The notes under the pieces were generated by a model. That model had not been told where the DNA came from and searched no databases. It saw nothing but the letters and a program-made list of their open reading frames with translations. A stretch of DNA of 29,685 nt, taken from IMG/VR virus record IMGVR_UViG_3300046747_000663, positions 1-29,685 of that record, one strand, 5' to 3'. Both the position numbers and the translations under genes were made by a program. Positions within the stretch are counted from its first letter, which is position 1, and each line of letters starts with the position of its first letter. Below are positions 25,605 through 29,417 of this stretch, in pieces. This DNA comes from a virus.

Positions 25605-27315
25605 AATAGGCATCCCTCTCGGTCACGGGTTCGTAGACAGCGTTCTCGGCTCGTTCGAGGCGTTCTTCCCGCTCCCGCTGGAGACCGTCCTCGTCTTCGA
25701 TCCACTCCACGCTACCCTTTTTCAGGCCTTCCACGACAGGCCCCTCCAGGAAGGCGCGGGCCTCCCGCCAACCGTAGAGGAAGCCATCCACGCAGTGGTC
25801 CTCGAACCCTTCCTCGGGCAAAGACCGGTCTTCGTTCCACGGCAGCTCGTCCATCTCCTTCAAGAGATCGACGCACCGGTCGCGGACGATCTGCACGCGT
25901 ACGCGGCTGAGATCGCCGGCTAACAAGGCAAAGTAGCCTCGCTTGTTCTGTTTTTCGGCGGCTTTGATCGGGAGATCGAAGCGCTCTTTGGCCTCTTCCG
26001 CATACCCCTTTCCGAGGCCGCCGAAGTCGCCCACCATCGAATCGAAGTTGTACGTCTTGTCGAGGCTCTTGATGAACTCCGCCGCCTTGGAAGGCGTCAG
26101 GCCCAATTGTTTATAGACCTCCAGAACGTACACCCGAGGATCGTTAGGGCGCCAACCCAGAACAACAAACGCGCAAGCATCCGTAAACCCGAAGTCAACA
26201 GAGAGAATATGAAACGCGCACTTCGGCGCTTCGTTGATGACGACGGCCTTGTCGTTGTAAGGGAGGACGAGGCCGCCTTCGACGATCGTCCAATCCCCAT
26301 TACGTAACTGCGCCCGCGTGACCGGATCGAGTTGCGCGAGAGAGAGTTCATAACTCACCGTATCGACGTGGGGGTTGTCGTCGAGCCGGGCGGGGATGAA
26401 GCGTCGGTTCTTGTCCCGCTCGGCGAGGAAGCGCTTTCTCACCCAGCGGTGCCCGATGCCGCCGGGGTTCGAGGCGCCGCGCACGCGAAGCGGCACGTCG
26501 AGCCCTACCGGCTTACGAAGGCGGGAGAACATGAACCGGTACCAGCTCTCGGGGAACTGGGTCAGCTCATCAAAGCCGATGAACGCGAACTCAGCGGACG
26601 CGTAGCGGAACCGGTCCCGATCGTTGTCGATGAACCCGAAGGAGAGCGACGCGCCCGACGGGAACGTCCAGCGTTTCTCCTGCTTGTCCCAGATGGCTTC
26701 CGTCGCGGCTAGGAACTCGTGGCTCCTGTCCATCACGGCGCCCGGGAGCGCGAGATCCTTGTACGAGCGGCGCAGGATCAAGGCGTGGTAGCCGGGGACG
26801 TCCACGTACTGGAGGGCGGCCATGAGCATTGCAGAGGACTTCCCGCCGCCGGCCGCGCCGCCGTAGAGGACCTCCAGCTCGGTCGAGGCGAGGAAGTCTT
26901 TCTGTTTGCCGGTGGGCCGCTGCGGGCACCACTGGTGCTGGGCTTTCTTCCGCCGCTCCAGCTCCTTCTGGATGTCCCGAACGAGGTCCAGCTCGTCGGC
27001 GGTCAGCCGCACGCGCGAGCCTCCCGGCATCACCGGGTCCGGAATCGGCTCTAGTTCCGAGGGGATAGACGGGATCTGCGGCGACGTCGGGGGCTTCGCC
27101 GTGTTCTGTATCGTCCGGGACGGCGCGATGCCGGTCTTCCCGTTCAGCAGCCACCGCCACCAGAGCAGCTGGTACTCGACCAAGCCCTCCCGGGCCGCGT
27201 AGTCGGACGAGCTGAGGCCGGACGCAGCCCACCCCTCGACGCGCGTGCGCCAGAGCCCCACCTTCCCGGGCTCGAAGTAGCTTTGCGCGTGGGCGCCGCG
27301 GTGGATGTCGCTCAC
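25528..27315 (-). CDS. terL: large terminase subunit (TerL) with N-terminal HTH extension
   Basis: A 595-residue packaging motor ATPase and nuclease. Walker A is GGAAGGGKSS (152-161, Lys159), Walker B is IGFDE (Asp249, Glu250), and ASNPGG (281-286) fits the coupling motif. The nuclease domain has SVDFGFTD (Asp374), VGDFGG (Asp430) and DHCVDGF (Asp510), giving an RNase H-like acidic triad; QLRNGDW precedes it. Residues ~18-60 carry an extra segment, WRTRVEGWAASGLSSSDYAA...GL...WWRWLL, that matches the pattern of helix-turn-helix domains of IS66-type accessory and transposase proteins. The GTG start overlaps the previous stop as GTGA. Confidence 0.9.
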   Translation of the reverse strand: MSDIHRGAHAQSYFEPGKVGLWRTRVEGWAASGLSSSDYAAREGLVEYQLLWWRWLLNGKTGIAPSRTIQNTAKPPTSPQIPSIPSELEPIPDPVMPGGSRVRLTADELDLVRDIQKELERRKKAQHQWCPQRPTGKQKDFLASTELEVLYGGAAGGGKSSAMLMAALQYVDVPGYHALILRRSYKDLALPGAVMDRSHEFLAATEAIWDKQEKRWTFPSGASLSFGFIDNDRDRFRYASAEFAFIGFDELTQFPESWYRFMFSRLRKPVGLDVPLRVRGASNPGGIGHRWVRKRFLAERDKNRRFIPARLDDNPHVDTVSYELSLAQLDPVTRAQLRNGDWTIVEGGLVLPYNDKAVVINEAPKCAFHILSVDFGFTDACAFVVLGWRPNDPRVYVLEVYKQLGLTPSKAAEFIKSLDKTYNFDSMVGDFGGLGKGYAEEAKERFDLPIKAAEKQNKRGYFALLAGDLSRVRVQIVRDRCVDLLKEMDELPWNEDRSLPEEGFEDHCVDGFLYGWREARAFLEGPVVEGLKKGSVEWIEDEDGLQREREERLERAENAVYEPVTERDAYYGLESGVDEAAAGGLVQHYRQARRR

Positions 27316-27635
27316 GCGGCGGGCTTTTCAGCCTTCGCGACGGCCTCCGCGCGCGGGGTCGTGCGGCGCTTGAAGCTCTTCACGATGTGCCACGGAACCT
27401 CGGTCGGCACGCCGCCGCCGAACGGCTTCAGGACCACCAGCGGCCCGATGGGCGTCAGCTGGATGAAGATCCCGACGGTGTTGCTGGAGCCGGGGAGGAT
27501 GCCGTCCCCGAAGTACTGGCTCTCCGGGCCGTAGCCGATCTTCCGGGGCTCCCTAACCGGGACGGAGAAATGCACGCTTTCGAGTTCGATCTCTTGCATG
27601 CGGCAAAGATCGACCCGAAAACGCGCACTTGTCAA
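27312..27635 (-). CDS. hypothetical protein upstream of TerL (107 aa)
   Basis: A small beta-rich protein (VHFSVPVREPRKIGYG, GIFIQLTPIGPLVVLKPFGG) with a basic C-terminus. No family is recognised. The TTG at 27635 overlaps the stop of the GNAT-like gene (TTGA), while the ATG at 27599 gives a shorter 95-residue form; neither has a clear SD, so the start is uncertain. Its stop overlaps the TerL start, so it is likely translated in the same coupled series. Confidence 0.55.
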   Translation of the reverse strand: MTSARFRVDLCRMQEIELESVHFSVPVREPRKIGYGPESQYFGDGILPGSSNTVGIFIQLTPIGPLVVLKPFGGGVPTEVPWHIVKSFKRRTTPRAEAVAKAEKPAA

Positions 27636-28045
27636 TCGTTCAGCAGAAACGCGTATGCGTCATACACCCATTTTTTGGGATCAGGGTTCAGCTTCACGAA
27701 GGCCGCCGGCAGATGCGTGTGCCGGTACGGACCCTTCAACGGTAGAAGTGCCGAGATCAGCTTTTTAGCGATCCCGGTTCGCCGGTAGGCGTGTTTTACG
27801 AACACGTAGTCGAGGGTGCGATCCTCGGCCGAACCGACGGCCCAGCCAAGGATCAGATCCCGGGTGTCTTCCAGGTGAGCAATGATCGCCGTGGTGCTCT
27901 CCAGGCGTTTCCGGATCGCCACCTTCTGCCGCAGCTCGTAGAGCGAGGCATCCGCGAGCCGCTGCACGGTGCCGTTGGCTGCCGTCCAGCTGGTCACGAT
28001 GTAGTCGATATCCCCGGGCTCGGCCTCACGAAGAAGTAGCTGCAT
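27632..28045 (-). CDS. GNAT-like acetyltransferase
   Basis: A 137-residue protein with the layout of a GNAT fold: a first strand LLLREAEPGDIDYIVTSW, a long helical part, a strand RDLILGWAVGS, then strand and helix LDYVFVKHAYRRTGIAKKLI. The RRTGIA element (88-93) fits the acetyl-CoA-binding motif A (R/Q-x-x-G-x-A/G). The C-terminus is short. Such genes occur beside terminases in some phages; whether it acetylates a host protein, a virion component or a small molecule cannot be told. It overlaps the preceding gene by 20 bases. Confidence 0.7.
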   Translation of the reverse strand: MQLLLREAEPGDIDYIVTSWTAANGTVQRLADASLYELRQKVAIRKRLESTTAIIAHLEDTRDLILGWAVGSAEDRTLDYVFVKHAYRRTGIAKKLISALLPLKGPYRHTHLPAAFVKLNPDPKKWVYDAYAFLLND

Positions 28046-28696: not shown

Positions 28697-29254
28697 TCAC
28701 TCCTTCAGGAGTGGCTTCAGCCCGAACTTCTCGAGCATCGCCACCAGTTGTTCCGAGGTCATCTCGGCGACGTTGATGTTGAGTCGCTGGTTGATCGTGT
28801 TCTTCGTCGTGCCGGCGAACTGCGGCGGCTGGTACTTCCGCGGCCACCGGCGTTCCATGAACGTCATGACGGCCGAGGCGCTCCCGCTCGCGAGCAACGT
28901 CGCCACGATCTGCGTCTCGGCCTTGGCTTCCGCCTGCTCTAGCTGCACCGCGAACCGCCGAAGAAACAGCCACTGCGCGTCGCTCACCCCTTCCGGGGGG
29001 GCCGACTGCCGGGCGATGCGGAGGGCCGCGTAGAAGGCATCCGTCGTAATGCCGGCGGCTTGCACCGCCGTGTCGAGGAAGTTGCCCTTCGTGACGCTCT
29101 CCAGAATCGATTCACTGATCCCCTTCCGGTACGTCTCCTGGAGGAGCGAGCCGGCGAGGGTGACGTCATCCTGGTTTGCGCTTGAGAGCGTCGGGGGGTT
29201 CACCCACGGCTCCGGAGCCGTGGTCTTGTTGGGCTTGGCTTTGGGTCGCGACAT
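28697..29254 (-). CDS. terS: small terminase subunit candidate (TerS)
   Basis: A 185-residue protein proposed to recognise the packaging site and recruit TerL. A helix-turn-helix is visible at about 55-84 (GNFLDTAVQAAGITTDAFYA), followed by helices with the segment FMERRWPRKY (132-141), which resembles the W-x-L-E-R-R-x-P-x-x-Y element of many phage small terminases. A Gln/Lys-rich linker and a C-terminal amphipathic helix follow. The ATG at 29254 is preferred, although GTG at 29257 is possible; no strong SD is present. It overlaps the ribbon-helix-helix gene by 89 bases in a different frame. Confidence 0.7.
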   Translation of the reverse strand: MSRPKAKPNKTTAPEPWVNPPTLSSANQDDVTLAGSLLQETYRKGISESILESVTKGNFLDTAVQAAGITTDAFYAALRIARQSAPPEGVSDAQWLFLRRFAVQLEQAEAKAETQIVATLLASGSASAVMTFMERRWPRKYQPPQFAGTTKNTINQRLNINVAEMTSEQLVAMLEKFGLKPLLKE

Positions 29255-29417
29255 CACCGGGCAGCATAGAGGCAAGGGCGAGCTGCACGAAATCCGCGCG
29301 CTTCAACCCCAGCCGCTTCGCTTCTTGGTCCACGGCCAAGAACATCCCGATCGGAACGCGAACCCCCAGTTTGACGAGTCCGCGTTCCTTTGCGTACCGC
29401 TTCTCGTCCCACGCCAT
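29166..29417 (-). CDS. ribbon-helix-helix-like DNA-binding protein (83 aa)
   Basis: The core pattern at about 14-52 (LVKLGVRVPIGMFLAVDQEA followed by KRLGLKRADFVQLALASML) fits the strand-helix-helix arrangement of CopG/Arc-type regulators, with a charged N-terminus that could hold the DNA-contacting strand. The C-terminal 30 residues are Gly/Gln-rich and probably flexible. AAGGTGGG lies four bases before the ATG at 29417. It may regulate this transcription unit or act beside TerS at the packaging site. Confidence 0.65.
   Translation of the reverse strand: MAWDEKRYAKERGLVKLGVRVPIGMFLAVDQEAKRLGLKRADFVQLALASMLPGDVATQSQAQQDHGSGAVGEPPDALKRKPG

Follow-up and report, generated by a model that had tools for sequence, protein, structure and literature searches.

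The window, which is the whole stretch of 29,685 nucleotides that was analysed, is an IMG/VR virus record. It carries a gene for the terminase large subunit (TerL) with a stretch of additional residues ahead of the motor core (Table 1). TerL residues 115-479 matched the terminase large subunit family phrog_979 in PHROGs (E = 2e-55), Terminase_6C was found above its Pfam cut-off, and Foldseek showed resemblance to the TerLs of phages D6E and Sf6. Alignment to 35 homologues placed Walker A (GGAAGGGKS) at residues 152-160 and FDE at 248-250. Apart from its N-terminus, the protein was an ordinary terminase with a Walker A/B ATPase and an RNase H-like nuclease, as a first sequence-only reading had described it. 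The nearby genes coded for a P22-like portal, an SU10 adaptor and an SU10 major capsid protein (MCP), which fit an SU10/P22-like head module. The separate candidate for the small subunit (TerS) named in that reading was also confirmed by its phrog_4102 match, and it resembled ORFs just upstream of TerL in three other loci (L206, L064 and L114). Between TerS and TerL lay a GNAT acetyltransferase-like gene. A similar gene was located upstream of TerL in L093, and a GNAT-looking ORF was located there in L165 (4775-5218).

Table 1. Features of the TerL locus in the window.
Feature	Position	Strand	Basis
TerL gene, 595 aa	25528..27315	minus	GTG start overlaps upstream stop; phrog_979, Terminase_6C, Foldseek
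TnpA-type helix-turn-helix, TerL residues 16-61	27133..27270	minus	NF047593, own TnpA profile, predicted helices
Pro-rich linker, TerL residues 62-105	27001..27132	minus	sequence; pLDDT
TerL ATPase-nuclease core, residues ~129-512	25780..26931	minus	alignment to 35 homologues
Small ORF upstream, overlapping TerL by 4 bases (GTGA)	27312..27635	minus	ORF list, codon-position GC
GNAT acetyltransferase-like gene	27632..28045	minus	Acetyltransf_1 above cut-off
Separate TerS candidate	28697..29275	minus	phrog_4102 terminase small subunit, E = 4.8e-10

The N-terminal extension was compared with the accessory protein TnpA of IS66-type elements. TerL codons 18-60 correspond exactly to 27264-27136 on the minus strand, where K18 is followed by VGLWRTRVEGWAASGLSSSDYAAREGLVEYQLLWWRWLLNGK. 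All elements of the motif from which a transposase-type helix-turn-helix (HTH) had been proposed were present, namely W22-x6-W29, SGLS, Y39-A, GL, x6 and WWRWLL. In a profile search of residues 1-100, residues 21-78 matched NF047593 (IS66_ISAeme5_TnpA, NCBIfam) with 34.6 bits (E = 2e-8). The whole TerL gave 31.6 bits, and both scores were above the curated cut-off of 28 bits, which identified an IS66 TnpA HTH at the domain level. No Pfam family matched the extension. An independent profile was then built from 48 distinct domains of TnpA-like proteins from bacterial genomes, with the window left out. The extension scored 31.4 bits on it, whereas none of 20,000 composition-preserving shuffles exceeded 9.5. 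A narrower first profile, dominated by the TnpAs of one genome, gave 15.5 bits, and the highest score among 5,000 shuffles was 10.3. A chance resemblance to TnpA was ruled out by these shuffles. The nearest TnpA members were 41-45% identical to the extension over 33-36 aa, and the signature positions W22, S32-G33, the aromatic residue at 39, G44, W53 and R54 were kept. A 40-aa TnpA consensus served only as a search probe.

When 26,483 ORFs of related TerL loci were ranked, the window TerL (with its own copy, L002) came first with 27.1 bits and was followed by TerS proteins at about 20 bits. The HTHs of related phages' TerS proteins weakly matched the TnpA profiles (up to 20.7-24.1 bits), as might be expected if the domain had arisen from the phage's own TerS by duplication and fusion and not from a transposon. 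However, the TnpA profile that gave 31.4 bits for the extension gave 2.3 for the phage's own TerS. None of the PHROG TerS families matched the extension, and its comparison with the phage's own TerS was not significant and out of HTH register. On the basis of the profile scores, this source was rejected as very improbable.

Structure prediction was performed on the full-length protein with an AlphaFold model built on 36 TerLs. Helices were predicted at residues 16-32, 36-43 and 47-61 with pLDDT of ~76-87. These three helices, with the second and third joined by a turn, had the fold of an HTH as far as a prediction can tell. A model of the isolated domain (80 residues, single sequence) was poor, with pLDDT 60 and the second and third helices merged. 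Residues 62-95 had pLDDT below 50 and were predicted to be disordered, the next helix began at 106, and the confident core followed. A Pro-rich linker of 75 residues had been described. It was indeed Pro-rich, but its unstructured part was only ~35-45 residues; 75 residues separate the HTH from the point at which the conserved ATPase begins. Similarity of the linker to SH3-like PDB entries was short and of low complexity and was set aside. By sequence and model, the TerL N-terminus is a predicted HTH of TnpA type, carried on a flexible tether. The curated profile above its cut-off, the independent profile with its shuffle control and the predicted tri-helical fold agreed with the IS66 accessory-type assignment. 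A captured HTH of the IS66-TnpA type at the TerL N-terminus was well supported.

Codon usage was examined to see where translation of TerL starts. GC3 was 0.97 in codons 1-60, no stop codon was found in the extension, and the frame with high GC3 was that of the upstream ORF as far as 27315 and that of TerL from there on. At this position the GTG start overlaps the stop of the upstream ORF (GTGA). Because of this codon-position GC, we took the extension to be translated in frame from GTG 27315. The further in-frame starts were at codon 19, which retains the HTH, and at codon 45, which lies inside it. The first one wholly downstream of the HTH was at codon 95/96. Around the position where TerL begins in near relatives, the only in-frame starts were at codons 95/96 and 102. 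The high GC3 and the TnpA profile match showed that the part upstream of codon 95/96 is coding, and this ruled out that codon as the sole start. An additional internal start besides GTG 27315 is possible.

The closest TerLs were those of L166 (69% and 51% identity, in two pieces), L165 (57%), L013 (49%), L089, L090, L091 and L009. Close relatives started ~20-35 residues ahead of the conserved ATPase start. L089, L091, L093, L165 and L009 have both portal and MCP genes in common with the window and are therefore its real kin. NF047593 matched only the window protein among the 36 aligned TerLs, and the TnpA-type HTH was found in 0 of 168 distinct related TerL ORFs. It was also absent from the matches listed among 653 phage records with a TerL match; in those listed matches, the alignment to the window TerL never began before about residue 100. 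No other TerL with the domain was found in ~160 viral or prophage loci, in samples of 379 and 294 bacterial genomes taken from the phyla to which L165 (Polyangiaceae) and L184 (Planctomycetes) belong, or in 50,697 phage records. Scans of viral contigs with single TnpA-type proteins found nothing. A DNA pattern scan of viral sequences for the GLSQAEYC type matched ORFs that were, by eye, XRE/Cro-type repressor-like or in a chance frame. The HTH-TerL fusion was thus known from one contig only. The sequence-only reading was to fall if family members had no such extension and translation began further downstream. An extension of this type was indeed lacking in all related TerLs surveyed, whereas codon statistics and the profile match over residues 21-55 spoke against the downstream start. 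The absence from all close relatives supported capture of the HTH.

Other extensions and insertions were seen in related proteins. N-terminal extensions of a different kind, 110-220 residues long, were present in the TerLs of L062, L065-L071, L082, L086, L087 and L007, from marine and other phages. Some of these contained AT-hook-like GRPKGS stretches or what may be an HTH (e.g. SLREAAEQLS...ISHVGLSKII in L086). The extensions of L082, L086 and L007 gave no convincing match in Pfam. The TerL at L166:398-2668, from a Verrucomicrobiota MAG, was most like that of the window over the ATPase part and carried an insertion of ~295 residues at Walker B. This insertion looked intein-like, with a Cys at its start, ARN at its end before a Cys, and weak sub-cut-off Hint matches.

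The TnpA family was frequent in candidate hosts: in the phylum to which the host of the nearest TerL belongs, 59 of 189 genomes had it. Fusion with a fragment of a host TnpA gene is the most likely way in which the lineage acquired the HTH. The HTH would have been retained, and the linker would stand in place of the downstream remainder of TnpA, which L247-L249 have. Such an in-frame fusion might be recent and merely tolerated, a neutral passenger with no role. The occurrence of the domain in one TerL and in none of the 168 related ones is consistent with this, as is the drift of some DNA-facing residues. However, the core signature and the fold were intact, the Pro-rich linker was fully in frame, and GC3 was as high as in the rest of the gene. 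This meant that the extension was not a decayed insertion, and we considered a passenger quite unlikely.

DNA recognition by TerL is usually thought to be left to TerS. The sequence-only reading had suggested that the captured domain gives the motor a recognition of its own, and the putative HTH may be inferred to bind DNA and recognize a sequence. The recognition helix is VEYQLLWWRWLL, in which basic residues usual in TnpA were lost. Its net charge was +1 against a TnpA mean of +2.4, and 7 of the 48 TnpAs were equal or lower. For residues 22-60, the net charge was +1 against a mean of +4.0. We judged it unlikely that TerL itself reads a site on the phage genome through a domesticated TnpA-type HTH and so shares or takes over the role of TerS. 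The main rival to an arm that holds DNA was docking, in which a domain of HTH ancestry contacts protein instead of DNA, either TerS, the portal or another TerL. The low charge of the recognition helix, a hydrophobic, Trp-rich face (WWRWLL) and the retention of TerS in the window favored docking. In P22, TerS is bound by the first 23 residues of TerL (PMC9611059). This binding and the less basic helix counted for such a role. In contrast, all TnpA signature positions were kept and the net charge was within the TnpA range, and docking remained doubtful. We preferred an auxiliary nucleic-acid-binding arm on a flexible linker, gained by fusion with a host TnpA fragment, and gave this reading a probability of about 0.55. 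The tethered HTH of each TerL subunit would help in locating the concatemer, or in keeping hold of it, close to where packaging starts, beside a conventional TerS.

Comparison with IS66 TnpA (NF047593, ISAeme5 type) showed a common HTH signature over TerL residues 21-55. However, the window domain was fused to a TerL of 595 aa whose gene lies amid phage head genes, outside an insertion sequence. The part of TnpA after the HTH was missing, since the match ended in the linker (at residue 78 at most) and Pro-rich disorder followed. The score of 32-35 bits was below that of typical IS66 TnpAs (54-63) and within the 28-60 range of the bacterial-genome collection. A whole IS66 element, with TnpA as a small protein beside TnpB and TnpC, was not found in the window. 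No transposase was detected among the window genes scanned with Pfam or PHROGs, and no further match to the TnpA family occurred in the window. An open frame of 470 residues in L325 contained a TnpA-type HTH, an IS66 transposase-like stretch and an apparent ribosomal protein L21, which may be an IS insertion beside rplU or an assembly effect. The HTHs of TerS proteins (phrog_4102 and related phages' TerS) are similar in general fold and act in the same pathway, but the window HTH sits on TerL, is nearer to TnpA in sequence and has a TerS beside it. Outside an IS, a TnpA-type HTH was found in just one free-standing phage protein, EVC30_101 of Rhizobium phage RHph_Y1_11 (L277:4962-5366, 40.3 bits). 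It differs in being a 134-aa stand-alone protein without fusion to TerL. Its annotation as a putative terminase small subunit is a weakly founded label.

The closest parallel in architecture was gpP of phage P2, which has a Terminase_5 (PF06056) HTH at residues 12-69 (2e-27), followed by the Terminase_6N ATPase and the Terminase_6C nuclease. HTH, spacer, ATPase and nuclease have the same order in both proteins. Since in gpP an N-terminal HTH precedes an ATPase and a nuclease of the families seen here, there is a precedent for a TerL with an HTH arm. What is new is where the HTH of the window comes from and that it occurs in this one TerL only. The window HTH was not Terminase_5, as that family gave no match at E ≤ 10, and the P2 HTH scored -1.2 bits on the TnpA profile. 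In hhalign the two HTHs aligned in register, but weakly (E 0.0077 in one comparison, probability 5). The P2 motor carries an unrelated domain at the corresponding position, so the window TerL is an unusual variant and not a new principle. The HTH of gpP presumably helps its motor in the way proposed for the window TerL. A second, different HTH of transposon type in the P2 position suggests that a DNA-binding arm was added to TerL more than once, and its small, separable domain offers a means of testing what such arms do.
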